NCBI RefSeq assembly: GCF_010727605.1
Contig: NZ_AP022568.1
Coordinates: 2,542,001 to 2,606,000 of the forward strand
Length of the DNA stretch: 64,000 nucleotides
Direction: 5' to 3'
Origin: Mycobacterium simiae
Lineage (GTDB): Bacteria > Actinomycetota > Actinomycetes > Mycobacteriales > Mycobacteriaceae
Shown here in pieces: positions 39,381 through 49,112 of the stretch (position 1 is the first letter of the stretch; each line of letters begins with the position of its first letter). The notes beneath the pieces were generated by a model. It was not told where the DNA came from. It was given only the letters and a program-made list of their open reading frames with translations, and ran no database searches. Made by a program: the position numbers and the translations under genes.

Positions 39381-39914
39381 TCAGCGCCGGGTCAACCGGT
39401 CGTGCGCTTCCAGCACCCGGTCCAGGCTGATCTGCGGTCCGTGCGGGTCCTTGGCGTTGTCGTCCCAACGGCGCACCATGACTGCCTCGGCGGCGCCGGG
39501 CTGGGCGCTGAATCGGGCGGCCTCGGCCTTGCTCATGGGACCGCCCTGCCGGTGCAGTGAGGTGATCGAGGCGGGACTGAGGTGCTCGCGGTAGTCCTGG
39601 TCGGTGGCGACGAGGTACCGCTTGGCCGGGACGTGCTGGGCGATGACCCAGGCGGCACGCGCGCCGAGGTGCATGCGGGCGAACTCGGCGCCGGACAACT
39701 CATGCGGCAGGTCCGGCCACTGCGCGGCCACCGGCTTCGCCCGGCCGATGTCGTGCAGCGTGGCCGCCAACAGCAACTCGTCGTCGCAGCCGAATTGCTC
39801 CGCCTGCCAACCGCTTTGCAGCGCGTGCGCGCGCTGGTCGACGACTTCACCGCCGTACGGCAGACCGGCCAGGCCATCGATGAGGGCGGCCAGCATGTCG
39901 CGGGTAAGGGTCAC
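39381..39914 (-). CDS. PhnZ-type HD-domain oxygenase (phosphonate operon HD protein)
   Basis: This 177-residue HD protein starts with a GTG at 39914 that overlaps the preceding stop (GTGA). Residues Tyr20, Glu23, His30, His54 and Asp55 are spaced exactly like Tyr24, Glu27, His34, His58 and Asp59 of PhnZ as I recall them; candidate remaining ligands are His82 (or His71), His94 and Asp151. In PhnZ the diiron centre oxidatively cleaves the C-P bond of 1-hydroxy-2-aminoethylphosphonate and the Tyr/Glu pair gates the substrate. No PhnY-type hydroxylase lies in the cluster. A phosphodiesterase acting on the C-P lyase product is the alternative. Confidence 0.75.
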   Translation of the reverse strand: MTLTRDMLAALIDGLAGLPYGGEVVDQRAHALQSGWQAEQFGCDDELLLAATLHDIGRAKPVAAQWPDLPHELSGAEFARMHLGARAAWVIAQHVPAKRYLVATDQDYREHLSPASITSLHRQGGPMSKAEAARFSAQPGAAEAVMVRRWDDNAKDPHGPQISLDRVLEAHDRLTRR

Positions 39915-40750
39915 GGCAGCTCCTCTGTGCGCGGCGTCCCGCGCAATGTGCTGACCAACTCTTCGGCCAGCTCGACCGTCGCGCCCACCACCCCCGACCA
40001 GCGGCGGCTCAGGTCGTGGTCGATCTCGAGCGGCCGGCCGTGCACGTCCAGCACGGCGCCACCCGCCGCGGGCACCATCACCAGCGCGGCCGCCAGGTCC
40101 ATGATGCGGTGCGTGTCGGAGCCGGCGTCGGCGAACGCATCGGTGGAGCCCTCCGCGACCAGCGCCGCCTCGAGGCAGCTCGTCGACAGGATCCGCACCC
40201 GGGCCGCCCGTTTGGCCACCCGCCACCACGCGGCGTCGTCGTGGCCGTGCGGGCGCAGCAGGCTGACCGCCGCGCCGTCGAGGTCCCGGCGTCCGCTGGT
40301 GCGGTACGGCACGGGTTCGCCCGCGACCGCATGCCAACAGCGCCCGGTGTCATACCAGCACGTCAACGCCTCGGTCGGGTGGCCGTCCACGGCCACCACC
40401 CCGGCGAACGCCGACAGCGGGACACCGGCCGCGGCGTTGGCGGTGCCGTCGACCGGGTCGACCACCAAGGTGACCGCCGAACCGTTGTCGATGACGCCGA
40501 TTTCCTCGCTGAGCAGATTGACCCGATGTCGATTCGTCACCTCGGCCACCGCGGTGTCGACGAGGATGTCCAGCCGCATCGTCGGCGTGCCGTCAGCGCC
40601 CATCTGAACCTTCTCGGCCAGGGCCGCGCGGTCGTAGCGGGCACGGGCGGCGCCGAACGCCGTCGCGGCGGCGCGGACCGCATCGGCCAGCGCCGGGTGC
40701 GTGCCGTCCGGCAGCTGCGGCTCGGGCACCCGCCACTCGATGCGCGTCAT
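39911..40750 (-). CDS. Inositol monophosphatase-like phosphatase in phn operon
   Basis: This 279-residue protein has the lithium-sensitive phosphatase motifs: LLSEEIG (metal-binding Glu), VVDPVDGTANA (DPxDGT) and SDTHRIMDLAAALVMVPAAGG. In the last one, WD-x-AAG of the family reads MDLAAA. It overlaps phnM and the HD gene by four bases each. As phnN and phnP are not seen, a role in dephosphorylating ribose bisphosphate or the hydrolysed ribosyl cyclic phosphate is plausible. This is inference from context only. Confidence 0.78.
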   Translation of the reverse strand: MTRIEWRVPEPQLPDGTHPALADAVRAAATAFGAARARYDRAALAEKVQMGADGTPTMRLDILVDTAVAEVTNRHRVNLLSEEIGVIDNGSAVTLVVDPVDGTANAAAGVPLSAFAGVVAVDGHPTEALTCWYDTGRCWHAVAGEPVPYRTSGRRDLDGAAVSLLRPHGHDDAAWWRVAKRAARVRILSTSCLEAALVAEGSTDAFADAGSDTHRIMDLAAALVMVPAAGGAVLDVHGRPLEIDHDLSRRWSGVVGATVELAEELVSTLRGTPRTEELP

Positions 40751-41940
40751 CGACTGCTCACCAACACCGAACGCACCACCGGCCAGCGGCCGGCGGCCAG
40801 CAGCACCAGGTCCGCACGCAGGCCGGGCTGCAGCCGCCCGCGGTCGGTCAGCCCCCCGACCTCTGCGGGCCCGGACGTCACCAGCGCGATGGCCGCGGCC
40901 GGTTCGATGACCCCGTCGTTGACCAAAGTGAACGCCGCGGCCAGCAGCGTCGACGGCAGGTAGTCCGACGCCATCGCGGTCACCAGACCGCGGGCGATCA
41001 GCTCGCGACCCGACGCGTTGCCGTTGTGCGACGTTCCGCGCAGCACATTCGGCGCGCCCATCACCACCGGCAGCCCGCGGTCACGCGCCGCCTGCGCCGC
41101 CTGGGTCGTGGTCGGGAATTCGGCGACCGCGCCGCCGCGGGCCACCAATTCGTCGACCTCTTCCGCCGAGGTCAGGTCGTGGCCGAGCAGCCGGATGCGG
41201 CCGGGCCGGGCCTGCTCGGTCAGCCACGCCATCGCCTCCTCGCGGATGCCGAGCCGGCCGCTGCGCTCGGCGATGAGGTTGTCGACGTGGCTGGCTGCCT
41301 GCTCCGCGCTCATGCCGCGCGAGCCCATCATGTAGCGCTCGTAATAGGCGCGTTCGGCGTACTGGCCCTGCCCCGGCGTGTGGTCTTCGTGTGAAACGAG
41401 CGGGACGCCTGCTTGACCCTCCAGCCGCTGTTGAAGTGCCGCAAGGCCTTCCGGGCTGCGGACATCGAGGCGGTACAGGATCCGGTGGTCCACCAGACCG
41501 TCGGGCCGGGCTTCGATGGTGTCGCAGAACAGGTTGGCGTCCTCGATGGTGCGCGGGGTGCCGCGGCCCATGCTCTGTTCGAACGCGGCGCCGTGGAACA
41601 CCGTCGTCAGGCCACTCGCCCGCAACTTACCCTCGAACGACAGCAGCGCGAACTCCATCGGCAGCTCCGCGCCCGGACGCGGCAGTCGCTCCTTCTCCAG
41701 CCCGTCGCTGTGCGTGTCGACCAGACCCGGAATACACACCAGCCCTTGACCGTCCACGTCGGCGGACAGTCCCGCCGGATGCGGTTCGACCGCCGCGATG
41801 ACGCCGTCGCGCACGGCCACCACCGCGTCATCGATCACGCCGTCGGGCAGCACGGCACGGACGTGGCCGAGCACGTAGTCGGCGGGCGGCGCCGCCAGCG
41901 GCCAGTGCTGGACGGTGCGTTCGAAAATCTCGGTTGTCAT
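40747..41940 (-). CDS. phnM: C-P lyase pathway triphosphate hydrolase PhnM
   Basis: This 397-residue amidohydrolase-fold enzyme removes pyrophosphate from ribose-1-alkylphosphonate triphosphate to give the 5-phosphate that PhnJ cleaves. Metal-site segments are PGLVDTHSDGLEKE near residue 75, VSHEDHTPGQGQY near 185 and the C-terminal ASDYLPSTLLAAAF. It overlaps phnL and the phosphatase gene by four bases. The length matches the family. Confidence 0.92.
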   Translation of the reverse strand: MTTEIFERTVQHWPLAAPPADYVLGHVRAVLPDGVIDDAVVAVRDGVIAAVEPHPAGLSADVDGQGLVCIPGLVDTHSDGLEKERLPRPGAELPMEFALLSFEGKLRASGLTTVFHGAAFEQSMGRGTPRTIEDANLFCDTIEARPDGLVDHRILYRLDVRSPEGLAALQQRLEGQAGVPLVSHEDHTPGQGQYAERAYYERYMMGSRGMSAEQAASHVDNLIAERSGRLGIREEAMAWLTEQARPGRIRLLGHDLTSAEEVDELVARGGAVAEFPTTTQAAQAARDRGLPVVMGAPNVLRGTSHNGNASGRELIARGLVTAMASDYLPSTLLAAAFTLVNDGVIEPAAAIALVTSGPAEVGGLTDRGRLQPGLRADLVLLAAGRWPVVRSVLVSSR

Positions 41941-42674
41941 GCCGCTCCCTCGAGGATTTCGCTGGGGGCACCGTCTTTGACGACGCGTCCGTCGCCCATC
42001 AGCACCACCCGAGATGCCAGGCGCCGGATGGCGTCCAGATCGTGAAACACCGCCAGCACCGCGACATGTCGCGCCGTTAACGACGCGATCAGTTCCAGTG
42101 CCGCGTCTCGGTTAGCCGGGTCCAGCGCCGACACCGGCTCGTCGAGCAACAGCAGCCGCGGCGGGCGGACCGTTCCGGCCGCCAGGTTCACCCGCTGACG
42201 CTCTCCCCCGGAGAGCACCGAACAGTCCACGTCCCACAACACCTCGTCGAGGTTGAGCCGCCGCAGCGCGTCGGCCGCCGCTTCACGCGCCTCGGCGCGA
42301 GCGATGCCGCGGCGCCGGGCGGTGGCCGCCACGAAATCCAGTGGACTGGTGCGCGGCGGGGCGTTCAAAAACTGTGATACATAACCGAATTCGCGGCCGC
42401 GCAACCTGGCCATCGCCCGGTCTGACAAGTCGGTCAGCTCGATGTGTTCGCCGGTCGCAGTGCGCAGCGTCACCGAGCCCGAGTCCGGTAGATAGGTGCG
42501 GTGAATGCACCGCAGCAACGACGACTTGCCGGCCCCGCTCGGACCGGCCAGCGCGACATGCTCGCCGGCCCGCACCGAGAGGTCGACGCCGTGCAGTGAG
42601 TGCACGACCCGACCGTCAATGGTGTGCAACGTGAACGATTTACGCAACGCGCGCACGGTCAGCACCGGTGGCAC
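41937..42674 (-). CDS. phnL: C-P lyase ABC-type subunit PhnL
   Basis: This is a 245-residue ATPase-like protein of the PhnK/PhnL class, which in C-P lyase works with the core complex rather than a permease. It has Walker A GPSGAGKSS, the signature LSGGERQRV, Walker B LLLLDEPVS and the H-loop AVFHDLDA. The GTG at 42674 has a near-perfect AGGAGGTGATCAC upstream, which overlaps the end of phnJK; the longer frame is unlikely. It is needed with PhnG, H and I to make the ribosyl triphosphate intermediate. Confidence 0.92.
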   Translation of the reverse strand: MPPVLTVRALRKSFTLHTIDGRVVHSLHGVDLSVRAGEHVALAGPSGAGKSSLLRCIHRTYLPDSGSVTLRTATGEHIELTDLSDRAMARLRGREFGYVSQFLNAPPRTSPLDFVAATARRRGIARAEAREAAADALRRLNLDEVLWDVDCSVLSGGERQRVNLAAGTVRPPRLLLLDEPVSALDPANRDAALELIASLTARHVAVLAVFHDLDAIRRLASRVVLMGDGRVVKDGAPSEILEGAA

Positions 42675-42678
42675 GTGA

Positions 42679-44502
42679 TCACCTCCTGGCCGCGGCGACC
42701 AGCCGCTGGGTGTAGGGCTGGTGCGGGTCACAGAACAACTGATCGGTCAGTCCGCGTTCGATCACCCGCCCCAGCTGCATGACGACAGCGCGGTCGGTCA
42801 GCGCCTCGATCACCGAAAAGTCGTGACTGACAACGACAGCGGCGATATCGCGTTCCAAGAGCAGCCCGCGCAGCAGGTCGAGCACGCCCGCGGCCACCGA
42901 CGCATCCAGGCCGGTGGTCGGCTCGTCCAGCAGCAATACCGGCGGCTCGGTCGCCAACGCCTTGGCGATTTGCACGCGTTGCCGCATACCACCGGAGAAC
43001 GTGCCGACCGGGTCGTCCATCCGCGCCAGCGGAACCTCCACGCGGTCAAGCAGTTCCGCGGCCCGGTCCCGGATGTCGCGGTAGCTCCGCCAGCCGGCGG
43101 CGGTAAGCCGTTCGGCGATATTGCCGCCGGCGCTGATCCGCAGGTCGAGTCCGTCGGCGGGGTTCTGGTACACCGCGGCCATCGTGTCGACGCGCAGCCT
43201 ACGTCGCTGCGCGTCGGTCAGGGTGAGCAGGTCCGTGTCCCCGTCGTCGACGCTGGCCACGTGCACCGCGCCGGTGGTCGCCCGCTCGTCGCCGATGATG
43301 CACGACAACACGGTGGACTTGCCTGAACCGGATTCCCCGATCATGCCCAGTGCCTCACCTGGGGCCACATCGAACGACACATCCCATGCCGCGACGACCG
43401 CGCCCGTGGCCGGGCTGATAGCGGTCCCGTAGTCGGGTCCGGTGCCGTCGACGGCGTAGACGCCACCGGCACCGTGCACCTTGCCGATCGAATCAACGCG
43501 CAGCATCCACTCGGCCGAATTCGCCTGAAAGTCGCTCTGGTGCAGCGGCTTTGCTCGGCGCGGCGCGGTTGTAACGCCGCCGGCCCGATTGTCGGGGTCC
43601 GGCAGCAGATGCAGCGGGGCGCGTTCGCGATGCGCGGCGCGGTCGGCGTCACCGGCACGAACCCGGGCGCACCATTCGGTATCGCTGCACACGAAACCGC
43701 CTCCGGGCCCGGCCTCGACGAGGAAAACGTCGTCACTGCCACACAACCGGCAGACCGCGCCGGCGGAGTACTCCACCTCGAACGGCACGTCGTCGAACGT
43801 CAACGGTTCCACGTCGGTGTGTGGCGGAACAGCATAGATCCGCTTTTCCCGTCCGGCGCCGAACAGATTGATGTGCTCGCATCGGTGCAGCCGCGGCACG
43901 TCCCACCGTGGGATCGGGGTGGTTGCCATCACGTAACGGCCGGCGACCAGCACCGGATACCCCGTGGTCCGGGTGATCATGCCATTGCGGACGATGTCCT
44001 CGTAGAGACCGACCCACAGCGCCGCGTAATCGTTTTCGGCATGCATACGCGCGCATTCGGCGACGGATTTCTGCACCTTGCGCAGCGGCTCGGGCACCGG
44101 CACCTGATACACCAACAGGTTGCCCTCTCCCAGCGCCTCCTCCGGAACGCGGTGACGCGTCTGCACCACCGTCGACTCCCGGGTGTCGGCCGACTCCGAG
44201 CATCCCGTGGTGGCCGCGATCATCCGGCGCAGGTTCGAGGCATTGACGCCGCCGTCGTCACCCTGGTCGATGACCTTCACGGTGTCGCCCGCGCCGATCA
44301 CCGACAGCGTCACCTGCAGCCCGCCCGAACCCCAGCCCCGAGCCACCGGCATTTCCCGCGACCCGAACGGCACTTGGTAGCCCGGCACACACACCGCGGT
44401 CAGTGCGGCGCGCCGGATTTCGCGCTTTCCGCTCTCGTCGAGAATTCCCGACGGCGGCTCGTCGTTGGTCAGCTCGGCGAGCAGCTCGCCCATGGTGGTC
44501 AT
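42679..44502 (-). CDS. phnJK: PhnJ-PhnK fusion: C-P lyase joined to its ABC subunit
   Basis: One 607-residue chain carries both functions. Residues 1-282 are PhnJ, which cleaves the C-P bond by radical SAM chemistry. Cluster cysteines Cys251, Cys254 and Cys272 and the thiyl Cys278 lie in CRLC and VCSDTEWC; the spacer between them is 17 residues against 21 in E. coli. A linker of about 50 residues follows. Residues about 332-607 are PhnK, with Walker A GESGSGKST (389-397), Gln446, signature FSGGMRQRV (502-510), Walker B LLLDEP (523-528) and His560. PhnK is known to dock on PhnJ in the C-P lyase core, so the fusion fixes that contact. The ATG at 44502 overlaps phnI by four bases. No frame break was seen in the linker. 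Confidence 0.92.
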   Translation of the reverse strand: MTTMGELLAELTNDEPPSGILDESGKREIRRAALTAVCVPGYQVPFGSREMPVARGWGSGGLQVTLSVIGAGDTVKVIDQGDDGGVNASNLRRMIAATTGCSESADTRESTVVQTRHRVPEEALGEGNLLVYQVPVPEPLRKVQKSVAECARMHAENDYAALWVGLYEDIVRNGMITRTTGYPVLVAGRYVMATTPIPRWDVPRLHRCEHINLFGAGREKRIYAVPPHTDVEPLTFDDVPFEVEYSAGAVCRLCGSDDVFLVEAGPGGGFVCSDTEWCARVRAGDADRAAHRERAPLHLLPDPDNRAGGVTTAPRRAKPLHQSDFQANSAEWMLRVDSIGKVHGAGGVYAVDGTGPDYGTAISPATGAVVAAWDVSFDVAPGEALGMIGESGSGKSTVLSCIIGDERATTGAVHVASVDDGDTDLLTLTDAQRRRLRVDTMAAVYQNPADGLDLRISAGGNIAERLTAAGWRSYRDIRDRAAELLDRVEVPLARMDDPVGTFSGGMRQRVQIAKALATEPPVLLLDEPTTGLDASVAAGVLDLLRGLLLERDIAAVVVSHDFSVIEALTDRAVVMQLGRVIERGLTDQLFCDPHQPYTQRLVAAARR

Positions 44503-45611
44503 TCGCAATCCCTTCCGGCGGGCTCGGGAATGCGGGCACTGCGCACAGCGCCTGCCTCCTGCAGCGCCTGCTTGCGTTCCACCATGGAACGGAACGTCAC
44601 GTAATGCGGGAGCTTGAGATGGTCCAGGAATCCGCCGGAGTCCAGGCCGTCGGTGGTCAGCAGCAACAGCTGTTCCAGCGGTCCGGACCGGCCGAACCGG
44701 CGGTTGGCAATGTCGAGGTTCGCCATCGCGATCGCCTTGCGTTCGTTGTGCGCGAAGCACATTCCGTAGCCGACATCGAAGCGGCTGCGGTCCTCGTCGG
44801 CACCGTCGAGATCCTCGATGGCCTCGGCCTCGGTCACCCGGAACTCCCCGATGCTCACCTGTTCGCCGGTGTGCGGATGCTTGACCTCCAGCGGCAGCCG
44901 CCCGTGCCGAACCTCACCGAGGGTGACCTCGTGGATGTCGCCGTCGGGGCCCAGGATCGAGCGGTACCACAGCCCGACCAGCGCGCCGGTCTCTGCGCGT
45001 GCCATGGCGGCCAACACCGCCGAGCGCGGCGCGGGCGGCCGCGGCGGAACCCGGGTGATGTCAAAGGGTTCCGGATCCTCACCGGTGCGGTGGTCGACGA
45101 CCAGGCCGGCCTCGCGCAGCAGCTCGAGGAATCGCCGCGGGCTGCGCTGCTCGGCGGTGCGTGGCCGCGCGGCGGCTTCGGACGACGGATCCGTCGGGGC
45201 CGCGGGCGCGGCGGCTGACTTGTCCAACAGCCTGCGGGTGTAGTCGGTGGTGCGACCCAGCAGCTGCGGCCCGTCGGGTTCGCGGAAGGCCGGCACGATC
45301 CGGCGCATGATCGTGATGCGGTCCGGGTCGATCGGTTCGCTGACGGCCAGCCGTGGCAACGTGGAGCGGTGCGCGCGTAACAGGTGCGCGGCCTCCAGCG
45401 GATCGCCCTCGGCCTGACGCAGCGCAGCGGCCGCGGCGGTTTCGTCGTACAGCCCCGCCTCCCCCATCACCCGGTCGACGGCAAGCCGGAATCGTGCCAC
45501 GATCTGCTCGGTGCCGGCCCACGGCACCGGTGCGAAATCGCGTGCCCGGCAGACTAATTCCTCCGCGGCAAGGATGGCTTCCAGGCCACCGCGGGCTCCC
45601 GAATATCCCAT
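44499..45611 (-). CDS. phnI: C-P lyase core subunit PhnI
   Basis: This 370-residue PhnI is the nucleosidase-type core subunit that, with PhnG, H and L, couples phosphonate to the ribose of ATP and releases adenine. Recognisable segments are MGYSGARGGLEAILAAEELV, the central VSEPIDPDRITIMRRIVPAF, GYGMCFAHNERKAIAMA and LDSGGFLDHLKLPHYVTFRSM. The ATG at 45611 shares one base with the phnH stop (TGATG), so the gene starts there and not at the upstream in-frame codons. Confidence 0.93.
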   Translation of the reverse strand: MGYSGARGGLEAILAAEELVCRARDFAPVPWAGTEQIVARFRLAVDRVMGEAGLYDETAAAAALRQAEGDPLEAAHLLRAHRSTLPRLAVSEPIDPDRITIMRRIVPAFREPDGPQLLGRTTDYTRRLLDKSAAAPAAPTDPSSEAAARPRTAEQRSPRRFLELLREAGLVVDHRTGEDPEPFDITRVPPRPPAPRSAVLAAMARAETGALVGLWYRSILGPDGDIHEVTLGEVRHGRLPLEVKHPHTGEQVSIGEFRVTEAEAIEDLDGADEDRSRFDVGYGMCFAHNERKAIAMANLDIANRRFGRSGPLEQLLLLTTDGLDSGGFLDHLKLPHYVTFRSMVERKQALQEAGAVRSARIPEPAGRDCE

Positions 45612-46207
45612 CAGTTCTCCTCGGTGATCGTGGTGGTGCGCGGCAGGCCGACCACCCGTCCGTCGTCGGTCACCAGCAGGATGTCGATGCCGGCCGGATA
45701 CGCCGCGACCGCATCGGCCCGGGCGGCGACGAACCCGGCGGGCAGTCCCTGGGGTGCGATGCGGGCGGTGTCGCGAATGCCCGGCCCCGACAGCGTCCAC
45801 CGCAGCGGACCGCCCTGCACATCGCGCACGCTGAGCGCCACCAGGGCCCCGTCCTCCGGCGCGTAGGCGGAGCCGCGGGTAAAGCCCCGCAGATCCTCCT
45901 CGTCGATCGGGCGGACCGCAGCCACCAGCCGCGCCATCTCGGCCGGCCAGGTGGGCGCGGACGTGGCGGTGGCGACGGCCTCGGCCCAGCGGTCACCGTC
46001 GTGCTCGAGCACGCACACGCCGGTGCTCAAGTCCGCCACTGCGAGGACTGGGACGATCGCCGGCGCCAGGATGGTCAGCGGTTCGCGGGGCAACGCCATC
46101 GGCGTGCCGGGGCGGGCCAGCGCTTCCAGCATCGCCCGGAACGCCTGCTGCGACTGCGTGGGTGGCAGTGCGGTCACCGTCTGCGCGGTCACGGGCTGCG
46201 CGGTCAC
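45611..46207 (-). CDS. phnH: C-P lyase core subunit PhnH
   Basis: This 198-residue PhnH is a core structural subunit. It begins with a GTG at 46207, overlapping the phnG stop, and shows the usual pattern QQAFRAMLEALARPGTP near the N-terminus and GPGIRDTARIAPQGLPAGF in the C-terminal half. The first 20 residues are a low-complexity Thr/Ala/Gln/Val tract. It is placed between phnG and phnI as in other clusters. Confidence 0.9.
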   Translation of the reverse strand: MTAQPVTAQTVTALPPTQSQQAFRAMLEALARPGTPMALPREPLTILAPAIVPVLAVADLSTGVCVLEHDGDRWAEAVATATSAPTWPAEMARLVAAVRPIDEEDLRGFTRGSAYAPEDGALVALSVRDVQGGPLRWTLSGPGIRDTARIAPQGLPAGFVAARADAVAAYPAGIDILLVTDDGRVVGLPRTTTITEEN

Positions 46208-46638
46208 GCCAACTCCTCGAATTCGACGATGGTGGGGGCGAGTTCGGCCCATTCCCGCGCCTCGCGCTCGGCCTTGCGGACGGCGACGATGTGGCACAGC
46301 CGGTCCACGTCGGCGGCGTGGGAGCGGCCCGCCTGGACCTCGGCGTCGAGCAAGGCGGCGGCCAGGACGGCGGCGCGGTCGTCGCCCAGCCGCATCGCCC
46401 AGCCACGGTGACCCGCCAACTCGACCTCGGCGCGGCAGGCCAGCACGTCACCGAGCAGAAACCGTTCCTGCGCGACCGGCTCACGAACCTGCGCCGACAC
46501 GACACCTACCTCAGGCGCGACGAGGATGCGCACCTCAACACCGTCGGCCAGACACGCATCGGCGAGGCTGCGCAGCTCGTCGGGCTCGGCCACGGCCAGC
46601 AATTCGCAGTGGCGGGCGCGGCTCAGAGGCTCAGTCAT
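46204..46638 (-). CDS. phnG: C-P lyase core subunit PhnG
   Basis: This 144-residue protein has the PhnG pattern: RARHCELLAVAEPDEL, then VGVVSAQVREPVAQERFLLGDVLACRAEVEL and GWAMRLGDDRAAVLAAALLDAE. The start ATG at 46638 overlaps the last codons of phnF by eight bases. PhnG supports the PhnI dimer in the core complex. Confidence 0.9.
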   Translation of the reverse strand: MTEPLSRARHCELLAVAEPDELRSLADACLADGVEVRILVAPEVGVVSAQVREPVAQERFLLGDVLACRAEVELAGHRGWAMRLGDDRAAVLAAALLDAEVQAGRSHAADVDRLCHIVAVRKAEREAREWAELAPTIVEFEELA

Positions 46639-47383
46639 TCTGGTCCCCTTCCGCGCCGACGCCGGCGCCGGCGCAGTCTTCGAGTTCGACCACCACGCGC
46701 ACCGCGTCACCCCGAGTCCAGGCGCTGCTGCTGAGCAGCACGTCACCGGTTTCGGCGTCGCGGCTGATGCTGTCGATGCGCCACACCGGGTCGCTCGCCT
46801 CGATGCCGAGGCTTTGCAACACCTCGCGGGGCGGGATGTCCAGGCTTGCCCGGCACCAGGCCCGGACCGGCCGCAAACCGCCTAACTGGCACAGCACGAG
46901 GTTCACCGATTCGACGCTTTGCAACGCGATGTCCAGGTTGGGGACGGCGTCGATCGGGACAAGTTCTCGGGTGATCGAGGCCAGCAGGTCGTCGATGTAG
47001 AAGTGCCGCACGATCTGGTACGTCGGGGCGCCCACCGGCCAACCCAGTTGATCGGCATCCTCGGCGGCCAGCTGAATGCGCTCGACAGCCTTGGTCTGCG
47101 AGCGCGGGACCGCACCGCTGGCCAACACCGTGGCATGCCAGGACGGCGGCCGTGATCGCGAAATCACATAGTCGATGCGCCGGTTGACGAAGGTGCCGGC
47201 CCCCTGGATGCGGCGAACCAACAGCCTGCGCTCCAGCTCCTGCAGGGCCGAGCGTGCCGCGGCGCGCCCGACACCGAAACGAGTGGCCAGCTCCGGTTCA
47301 CTGGCCACCCGGGTACCCGGCTCGCACTGGGCTAGCTCGCTGGCCAATTGGTCGGCGATGTCCAGATATCGCGCTGATGTCAC
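46631..47383 (-). CDS. phnF: GntR/UTRA regulator PhnF
   Basis: This regulator has a GntR winged helix (SEPELATRFGVGRAAARSALQELERRLLVRRIQGAGTF, about residues 25-65) and a UTRA domain. The GTG at 47383 is taken as the start; no ribosome-binding site precedes it and the 94-base gap after phnE is otherwise empty. PhnF of M. smegmatis is known to repress phosphonate transport genes. A TGGA-ATAGC-TCCA element upstream of phnD is a candidate site. It is embedded inside the operon it would control. Confidence 0.88.
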   Translation of the reverse strand: MTSARYLDIADQLASELAQCEPGTRVASEPELATRFGVGRAAARSALQELERRLLVRRIQGAGTFVNRRIDYVISRSRPPSWHATVLASGAVPRSQTKAVERIQLAAEDADQLGWPVGAPTYQIVRHFYIDDLLASITRELVPIDAVPNLDIALQSVESVNLVLCQLGGLRPVRAWCRASLDIPPREVLQSLGIEASDPVWRIDSISRDAETGDVLLSSSAWTRGDAVRVVVELEDCAGAGVGAEGDQND

Positions 47384-47477: not shown

Positions 47478-49112
47478 TCAGCTCATCTCGTGCCGCAGCC
47501 ACACTGCCAGCGCCTCCACCGCCAGTACGGTGACGCATACCATCAACAAAATCGTTGTCACCAAGCCGAATTCAAGGATCTGGGCGCCACTGAGCAGGTC
47601 GAAGCCGATACCACCCGCTCCGACGATGCCGAGCAGCGTCGCCGAGCGAACGTTCACGTCGAGCTGGTAGAGCACGTGGCCGATGAAGCTCGGCGCGGCC
47701 TGCGGCAGCGTTCCGGCGAAGAACACCTGCCAGGGGCCGGCGCCGGTGGCACGGATGGCCTGCTCGGGACCCGGATCGACTTCTTCTAACGAATCGGCGA
47801 CCAGCTTGCCCAGCAACCCGATGGCGCCCACGCTCAGCGCCAGCGTGCCCGCAACCGCACCGAGCCCGGTTATCACCACGAACACCACGGCCAGGACCAG
47901 CTCCGGGATACCGCGGATCACCACCACGAAGATGCGAAATGCTTGAGCCACACCAGGATTAGGTGCGACGTTGCGCGCGGCCAGGCAACCGATGGGCAGC
48001 GCCACCGCGGCGCCGATCATGGTGGCGCCCAGCGCGATTTTGACGGTCAGCCACAAATCGGACCACAGTTGGCCCCACATGCCTGCGGTGCTCGGCGGCC
48101 AGAACAGTTCGGCGTTCTTCAACGTCCCGCGCAGCGAATCCACGAAATGGATGGGATTGAGATCCGCGCCCCACGCCGACGCCAGCACCACCAGCACGGT
48201 CAACGCGAAGTACCCGGCGCGGCGCATCCGCGCCGCCGTCCACGGCGGATTGACCTGGCCACCGGTATGTAGCGGGGCGCTGCCCCTGCCGTGCCCGTCG
48301 GTGTTGCGCAGCAACGCCCGCCGGATCGCCCCGGACAGCAGCTCGACGAGGATACACAGCACGAGGACCAGTGCGGCCAAAGCCATTCCGCGGCGGTAGT
48401 CCAACTGCTTGAACGCCGTGGCGATCGCATACCCCAAGCCGTTGACGCCGACGAACCCGAGCAGCACCGAGATTCGCAGATTGATGTCCAGGCGATGCAG
48501 CGCCGTCGCCACGAACGCCGGCAACACCAGCGGCAGCACGCCGGAGGTCAGCACCTGTCCCGGCCGCGCCCCGGTCGCGCGCATCGCCGCCCGCGGACCC
48601 TCATCGACGTGCTCGATCGCGTCGCCGTAGAGCTTGGCGACCATGCCCACCGAGTGCAGTCCCATGGCCAGCACGCCTGTCATCGCGCCGAGGCCGAAGA
48701 TCCGGAAAAACACGATGGCCAACACCACATCCGGGACGGAGCGCACCATCACGATCGCGGCACGCGCGGCGAACCGTGACCGGGGGCCGGGCGTGGTGTT
48801 GGCCGCTGCCAGGATCGCCAGCGGCACACTGATGCCCACGGACAACACCGTCGCGCAGATGACGATCGCCAAGGTCTGTCCGCACAGTATCAACAACTCC
48901 CCGACGGGTGGAAAGTCCAGCGGCAGCATGCGTTCGGCGAAATCCAACGCGTTGTGGGCACCGTCGGTGAACGTCGCGACGTTGATCCGCAGGTCGGTGA
49001 CGGCCCAGCAACCCGCCAGCACCAGGGCGCCCATGACCAGCCAGGCCGCGGTACTGCCCACCCGCGGTGCCGCCAGCGTGCGGTGCTCCCGCGAGGCGGT
49101 GGCGGTGGTCAC
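47478..49112 (-). CDS. phnE: Phosphonate ABC permease, two PhnE domains fused
   Basis: This 544-residue inner-membrane protein has two homologous permease halves, each with about five or six helices and an EAA loop. The first EAA region reads RAAMRATGARPGQVLTSGVLP and the second EQAIRATGAGPWQVFFAGTLP. Many phosphonate systems make two separate PhnE subunits, so this is an internal duplication kept as one gene. The GTG at 49112 overlaps the phnC stop. It completes PhnD-PhnC-PhnE for phosphonate uptake. Confidence 0.93.
   Translation of the reverse strand: MTTATASREHRTLAAPRVGSTAAWLVMGALVLAGCWAVTDLRINVATFTDGAHNALDFAERMLPLDFPPVGELLILCGQTLAIVICATVLSVGISVPLAILAAANTTPGPRSRFAARAAIVMVRSVPDVVLAIVFFRIFGLGAMTGVLAMGLHSVGMVAKLYGDAIEHVDEGPRAAMRATGARPGQVLTSGVLPLVLPAFVATALHRLDINLRISVLLGFVGVNGLGYAIATAFKQLDYRRGMALAALVLVLCILVELLSGAIRRALLRNTDGHGRGSAPLHTGGQVNPPWTAARMRRAGYFALTVLVVLASAWGADLNPIHFVDSLRGTLKNAELFWPPSTAGMWGQLWSDLWLTVKIALGATMIGAAVALPIGCLAARNVAPNPGVAQAFRIFVVVIRGIPELVLAVVFVVITGLGAVAGTLALSVGAIGLLGKLVADSLEEVDPGPEQAIRATGAGPWQVFFAGTLPQAAPSFIGHVLYQLDVNVRSATLLGIVGAGGIGFDLLSGAQILEFGLVTTILLMVCVTVLAVEALAVWLRHEMS

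Follow-up and report, generated by a model that had tools for sequence, protein, structure and literature searches.

In Escherichia coli the carbon-phosphorus (C-P) lyase has been described by cryo-electron microscopy and, according to that report (PMC9947105), PhnK contacts PhnJ through the central insertion domain (CID) and the Asp226-229 loop, and PhnK W29 stacks on PhnL R82. The same study describes preparations in which PhnK occurs either as a single, flexible subunit or as a pair, PhnL being present in some and absent in others, and an ATP turnover that shifts one PhnK by 25 Å and drags PhnJ and PhnH along as near-rigid bodies. The gene described here bears on the unsettled question of how the ATPase activity of PhnK and PhnL drives cleavage of the C-P bond. 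It is a fused phnJ-phnK gene of Mycobacterium simiae, located within a 64,000-nucleotide stretch of contig NZ_AP022568.1 (assembly GCF_010727605.1, positions 2,542,001 to 2,606,000) that we call the window. The gene and its two domains are placed as follows.

42679..44502, minus strand: phnJ-phnK fused gene, 607 codons plus stop, with a start codon (ATG) that overlaps the stop of phnI (ATGA)
43657..44445, minus strand: PhnJ domain, residues 20-282
42682..43509, minus strand: PhnK-type ATP-binding cassette (ABC) ATPase domain, residues 332-607

Read from 44502 to 42679, the frame encodes 607 residues before its stop, with zero internal stops, and the computed mass of the chain is 65.0 kDa. The Pfam PhnJ family (PF06007) matches residues 20-282 with 375.6 bits against a cut-off of 25, and ABC_tran matches residues 374-530. 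The initial annotation had proposed one 607-codon frame with a complete PhnJ and a complete PhnK ATPase, and both the frame as read, on the minus strand, and its Pfam domains bear this out. For the PhnK half the best NCBIfam match is the equivalog TIGR02323 (residues 371-604), whose 218.5 bits lie below the cut-off of 302.85; the closest solved fold is that of E. coli PhnK. We therefore call the second half PhnK-type: gene order, tree and fold make it an ortholog of PhnK, but it is no member of TIGR02323.

The same architecture recurs in many genomes. Among the best 80 of 153 loci, taken from one genome per species and read frame by frame, 46 carry the one-frame fusion, one a broken fusion (L042) and 32 separate genes, and one ends at a contig edge (L047); the nearest locus, from Mycobacterium sherrisii, matches at 94%. 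Likewise, when the PhnJ part was used as a protein query and candidates were filtered for the length of the entire fused protein, PF06007 and PF00005 occurred together in 119 of 120 proteins (best 120 of 801). These two counts exclude chance or sequencing error as the source of the joined frame. A search for the fusion in other actinobacteria had been suggested along with the annotation, and its outcome is that the PhnJ-PhnK fusion is a widespread actinobacterial trait and no peculiarity of this genome. That the frame arose through faulty assembly or sequencing, or belongs to a gene in decay, consequently has essentially no probability. Such errors do occur, since two joined frames among E. 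coli-like matches (P0123 and P0138) resemble frame errors and the fused loci L042 and L091 are broken, but an artefact would not appear in dozens of independent genomes with strong purifying selection on both halves, and for the family as a whole this explanation is refuted.

Sampling at increasing taxonomic depth delimits the trait. In the M. sherrisii genus sample the query matched in 15 of 198 genomes: four held whole fusions, one held a fusion interrupted around residue 467, and the other ten matched the PhnJ part alone at 50-53% identity, five of which were read (L092-L096) and are split. The broken copy (L091, genome G037) lies in two frames. PhnJ was present in 9 of 397 genomes of the order sample, four of them fused (G605, G949, G003 = L086 and G001 = L085), the frames of the other five reaching at most 429 residues. 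The class sample gave PhnJ in 11 of 394 genomes and the phylum sample in 15 of 396; in each the single fused case was the centre genome itself, and the other 14 of the phylum sample were read and are split. Among 151 Chloroflexota genomes, 11 held PhnJ and none of these a frame long enough for a fusion (longest 381 residues). Therefore, C-P lyase is uncommon in the sampled actinobacteria, and its fused form belongs to a single branch. A long open frame proved an unsafe marker of fusion, as genome G1036 has a 697-residue PhnJ frame yet a separate PhnK. An E. coli-type query, for which the best 120 of 7581 proteins were listed, found PhnJ joined to an ABC domain in P0123 and P0138 only, and we rejected both as fusions outside Actinomycetota. 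Proteins P0124-P0136 from this search, among them one cluster of 385 members, are listed as E. coli-like proteins whose PhnI and PhnJ domains (PF05861 + PF06007) share a single chain.

We next consider the residues on which function would depend.

43669..43752, minus strand: Fe-S (iron-sulfur) cluster cysteines C251, C254, C272 and C278 with their spacer, from a motif scan and alignment to E. coli
43399..43473, minus strand: insert between b1 and b2 of the PhnK domain (residues 344-368), without counterpart in E. coli PhnK

Alignment places C251, C254, C272, C278 and G41 of the PhnJ half on the E. coli cluster cysteines 241, 244, 266 and 272 and on Gly32, and finds in the PhnK half the Walker A motif (K395), Q446, S503, D526/E527 and H560. 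The four cysteines had been annotated at exactly these positions, and the annotated Walker A, signature, Walker B and His560 likewise coincide with the E. coli motifs. G41, R116, H117, Q133 and the four cysteines are kept in 51/51 fused rows, and the Walker motifs, Q-loop, signature Ser, Asp/Glu pair and H-switch of PhnK in 49/49. We predict that the PhnJ half is active in S-adenosylmethionine-dependent radical cleavage of the C-P bond. The initial annotation was also right in counting four residues fewer between C254 and C272 (17, versus 21 between C244 and C266 of E. coli PhnJ). The motif could be located in 108 of 110 loci, and there the spacer ranges from 15 to 26; it measures 16-17 in 53 of 56 fused rows (duplicates included in both counts), and 15, 17 and 18 in some unfused rows; the shorter spacer was rejected as a special feature and is ordinary variation. 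The b1-b2 insert is cysteine-free in 48/50 fused and 23/49 unfused rows. Separately, 19 of 49 unfused PhnK rows (for example L046, L048, L078, L080 and L093-L096) carry between the first two ATPase strands a b1-b2 insert of the CxxC...CxxC, zinc-ribbon-like type.

Of nine residues reported as contacts between E. coli PhnJ and PhnK, seven are kept in the window's fusion, one of them conservatively. On the PhnJ side these are E149 (replaced by D158), Y158, D228 and D229, and on the PhnK side R78, R116 and Y118. The two exceptions are changes seen in split systems too, D226 of PhnJ being T235 here and Thr in 27/51 unfused rows, and R82 of PhnK, the one of its four PhnJ contacts (R78, R82, R116, Y118) that is lost, being V438 here and Val or Ile in 28/49 unfused rows. 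W29 of PhnK corresponds to Ala380 in the fusion; its Arg partner in PhnL is kept in 49/50 fused rows (one gap).

The linker, residues 279-331, has 53 residues, in agreement with the roughly 50 of the initial annotation, and falls into two unlike parts.

43585..43668, minus strand: conserved linker half, residues 279-306, of which about 288-306 lie past the end of E. coli PhnJ and have no E. coli counterpart
43510..43584, minus strand: variable tether, residues 307-331, with entropy 2.64, a ratio of nonsynonymous to synonymous differences (pN/pS) of 0.79 and low predicted local confidence (pLDDT)

In 45 fused sequences (L040, L049, L053, L077 and two broken ones being excluded), R280, H291, P296, L300 and R306 are invariant, and mean column entropy is 0.55 in PhnJ (18-250), 1.33 in 279-306, 2.64 in 307-331 and 0.48 in PhnK (369-607). 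Selection follows the same division: pN/pS, pooled over 14 non-independent pairs, is 0.10 in PhnJ (18-278), 0.22 in the extension, 0.79 in the tether and 0.10 in PhnK (374-607). PhnJ, PhnK and the extension are therefore under purifying selection and the tether is hardly constrained. PhnJ of the unfused rows stops shortly beyond its last cysteine, in most a few to about 20 residues past it, and lacks the extension motif. The extension is mostly missing in the outlier fusions L053, L077 and P0244, and present in L040 and G605, which makes it a trait of the main fused clade and not of fusion as such. The variable part, about 25 residues long, is predicted to form a flexible tether; VIA-align rows hardly cover the linker and support no statement on its fold. 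In Nocardia alni (L049) the distance from the last cysteines to Walker A is 282 residues, repeat-like and in frame, compared with about 103-133 in most fused rows.

Structure prediction bears on where the tethered PhnK would sit.

43969..44091, minus strand: PhnJ CID, residues 138-178, aligned from E. coli 129-169; in E. coli, the element on which PhnK docks

The full-length chain was predicted with a pLDDT of 86.3 and a predicted template-modelling score (pTM) of 0.84, as against 77.7 and 0.78 for residues 1-331 alone (86 and 57 alignment rows, respectively; CID residues 139-157 are poorly predicted in both runs). We regard a pTM of 0.84 as high for two domains of about 280 residues, and take their mutual placement as predicted. 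Without PhnK, pLDDT falls from 87 to 62 at residues 161-170, from 71 to 55 at 171-180 and from 90 to 82 at 231-240, as well as by 7-11 at 301-330 and from 59 to 47 at 1-10; other blocks differ by at most 4. By alignment to E. coli, the confidence-sensitive blocks correspond to the CID (138-178) and the Asp loop (235-238). This pattern is suggestive only, but it is what docking of PhnK in cis at its known E. coli site would be expected to give. Blocks 271-300 have a pLDDT of 93-97 in both runs, and the extension is accordingly predicted to be ordered and to pack on PhnJ. The annotation's expectation that the fusion would locate the contact was not upheld, because the contact is already known from E. 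coli cryo-electron microscopy and an unconserved tether of about 25 residues fixes no interface. A domain swap is also conceivable, in which PhnK would dock in trans, using the PhnJ from the opposite half, and the tether would staple the two halves of the dimer. Tether and extension together may be long enough for this, and sequence alone draws no distinction between cis and trans; on the other side, confidence in the CID rises with the chain's own PhnK, albeit in a single-chain prediction that can show cis only. We consider such a swap rather improbable.

We consider the following mechanism probable: the fusion is a functional subunit of C-P lyase, and its PhnK, covalently joined to PhnJ, docks in cis and is never released. 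The PhnK domain would dock on the CID of its own PhnJ; together with the PhnK of another PhnJK chain it would make up the dimer that hydrolyses ATP, and PhnL would sit on top. The linker would consist of the conserved PhnJ extension, packed right after the Fe-S cysteines, and the flexible tether. The machine would then be an obligate Phn(GHI-JK-L)2, in which the ATP cycle would pull PhnJ open, along with PhnH, while PhnK stays attached throughout. The 25 Å motion seen in E. coli is compatible with a PhnK that is fastened to the PhnJ of its own chain; such fastening would forbid the one-PhnK state of the E. coli preparations. The annotation had inferred one PhnK per PhnJ; the 1:1 ratio follows if the chain stays whole, but it is not new, as E. 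coli already has Phn(GHIJKL)2. If PhnK cannot leave, release and rebinding would be unneeded and the complex would keep its motor during purification.

This mechanism depends on the chain staying whole, and PhnK might instead be freed, additionally or exclusively, as a separate protein through an internal start or proteolysis of the tether. All 45 fused sequences do hold an in-frame ATG, GTG or TTG between residues 300 and 347, 13 of the 45 combine GTG or TTG with a 4-base Shine-Dalgarno match, and the tether is predicted to be unstructured and hence open to proteases. Yet no sequence of the 45 combines ATG with a 4-base match, the window's two candidates lack one, and the commonest start column (33/45) falls within the first strand of PhnK; there would, moreover, be no obvious reason to keep the extension. 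A separate PhnK from an internal start thus seems unlikely, and we assign a low probability to release by either route. Nor did a search with the PhnK half find a second PhnK in six fused genomes, where the next-best ABC match scored at most 162.5 bits (about 42% identical) versus 413-515 for the fused domain; in two of the six, the candidates scored were 150 of 272 and 150 of 194.

The history of the fusion was followed in quick trees. In the PhnJ tree, built from 103 rows (51 fused, 51 split, 1 unknown) after nine duplicate loci were dropped, fused rows form one clade of 50 that includes the unknown L047 (Shimodaira-Hasegawa-like approximate likelihood-ratio support 95), plus the outliers L053 and L077, and three changes are required. 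The main clade, which holds all but two fused rows, comprises Mycobacterium, Nocardiaceae, Pseudonocardiaceae, Streptomycetaceae and Micromonosporaceae. No return to the split state was found among its 49 fused rows, two of which have broken frames. The PhnK tree (98 rows) needs two changes; with the fused P0244 added and two rows dropped, the PhnJ and PhnK trees need four and two, and a combined tree of both halves side by side (82 rows, near copies and long rows removed) needs three. The placement of L077 and P0244 shifts between trees. In the approximately unbiased (AU) test, grouping all fused rows together was rejected (p-AU 3e-5) and grouping all but L053 was not (p 0.44). These trees indicate that one old origin accounts for nearly all fused rows. 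Rejection of the one-clade topology implies a second origin for L053, which rests on one contig of a metagenome-assembled genome (MAG) with about 0.95x coverage; the best of 120 listed matches to it (770 reported) is 74% identical.

Such a history might also be that of an accident, in which translationally coupled neighbour genes lost a stop once and the joined form was inherited with no mechanistic consequence. In most unfused loci read, the phnK stop-to-stop frame starts at or before the end of the phnJ frame, so that little change would be needed to join the two. As noted, the AU test does not reject one origin for the fused rows other than L053, the tether is close to neutral, and two Pseudonocardia genomes hold fused and split clusters together (L019 and L078 in P. 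kunmingensis; L030 and L080 in P. alaniniphila). What speaks against an accident is the lack of reversion in the main clade, the presence there of a constrained extension with five invariant residues that the unfused rows seen lack, and the second fusion, with the caveat of its low-coverage MAG contig. On balance an inconsequential accident seems somewhat unlikely. Fused-clade bacteria are largely aerobic. With this in mind, we tentatively entertain the further possibility that one clade runs a permanently motorised C-P lyase: the extension, lying directly after the Fe-S cysteines, would cap the cluster region, hold the tether in place and perhaps protect the cluster, and in genomes with both kinds of C-P lyase the fusion would stop the swapping of fused and split motors.

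The fused gene stands within a C-P lyase gene set, phnGHIJKLM, all together in the window.

46204..46746, minus strand: phnG reading frame
45611..46297, minus strand: phnH reading frame
44499..45611, minus strand: phnI; the PF05861 match suggests 45611 as its start
41937..42674, minus strand: phnL, with a likely GTG start at 42674, 4 bases past the fusion stop, and AGGAGG just upstream of that stop
40747..41940, minus strand: phnM

phnG, phnH, phnI, phnL and phnM flank the fused gene in 40/40 fused loci of at least 12 kb. A scan of nine operon proteins, which stopped short of the flanks, found no phnN, phnO or phnP. Beyond phnM, at 39381-40750, lie an inositol-monophosphatase-like gene and then an HD-domain gene (TIGR03276-like, below cut-off), found near 32 and 10, respectively, of the 40 fused loci of at least 12 kb; these two genes may have a role in cyclic ribose phosphate processing. 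The phnE permease (47478-49112) is one 544-residue frame that by eye resembles two permease copies joined.

We found no description of the fusion in the open-access literature, including passages of PMC10574752, PMC9947105, PMC7866108 and PMC6852614, most subscription papers lying outside this scope. Databases list the fused proteins under PhnJ or ABC-transporter names, some as 'ABC oligopeptide transporter'. A 2021 review lists the Streptomyces clusters phnFGHIKLM, phnMLKIHFEEDCNKG and phnMLJIHFCED, each without exactly J or K (PMC7866108). This is the pattern that would be expected of a fused gene named after one half, and the fusion would explain such seemingly incomplete actinobacterial phn clusters; as a caveat to this idea, the class-sample genomes mostly hold split genes.

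Taken together, the evidence suggests a new form of C-P lyase whose PhnJ and PhnK would make up an obligate 1:1 unit. Opp/Dpp/Met importer ATPases (for example 8j5q_D and 3tui_C) serve membrane transporters, whereas the fusion joins an ABC ATPase to a soluble lyase. Unfused actinobacterial C-P lyases (for example L050-L076) are, in the trees, the closest relatives without a fusion for each half, show the same gene order in the examples seen and have PhnJ 62-69% identical in the rows compared, but encode phnJ and phnK in separate frames. The E. coli complex Phn(GHIJKL)2 (PDB 7z15-7z19; PMC9947105) shares the core phnGHIJKLM in the same gene order, the folds and the catalytic residues, with 135/265 aligned residues identical in PhnJ and 120/248 in PhnK. 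It differs in that PhnJ and PhnK are separate and lack the C-terminal extension, the tether and the PhnK b1-b2 insert, and in W29 and R82, which are changed in the fusion. Relative to the E. coli scheme, the fusion would make impossible both a core carrying a single PhnK and any free exchange of PhnK.
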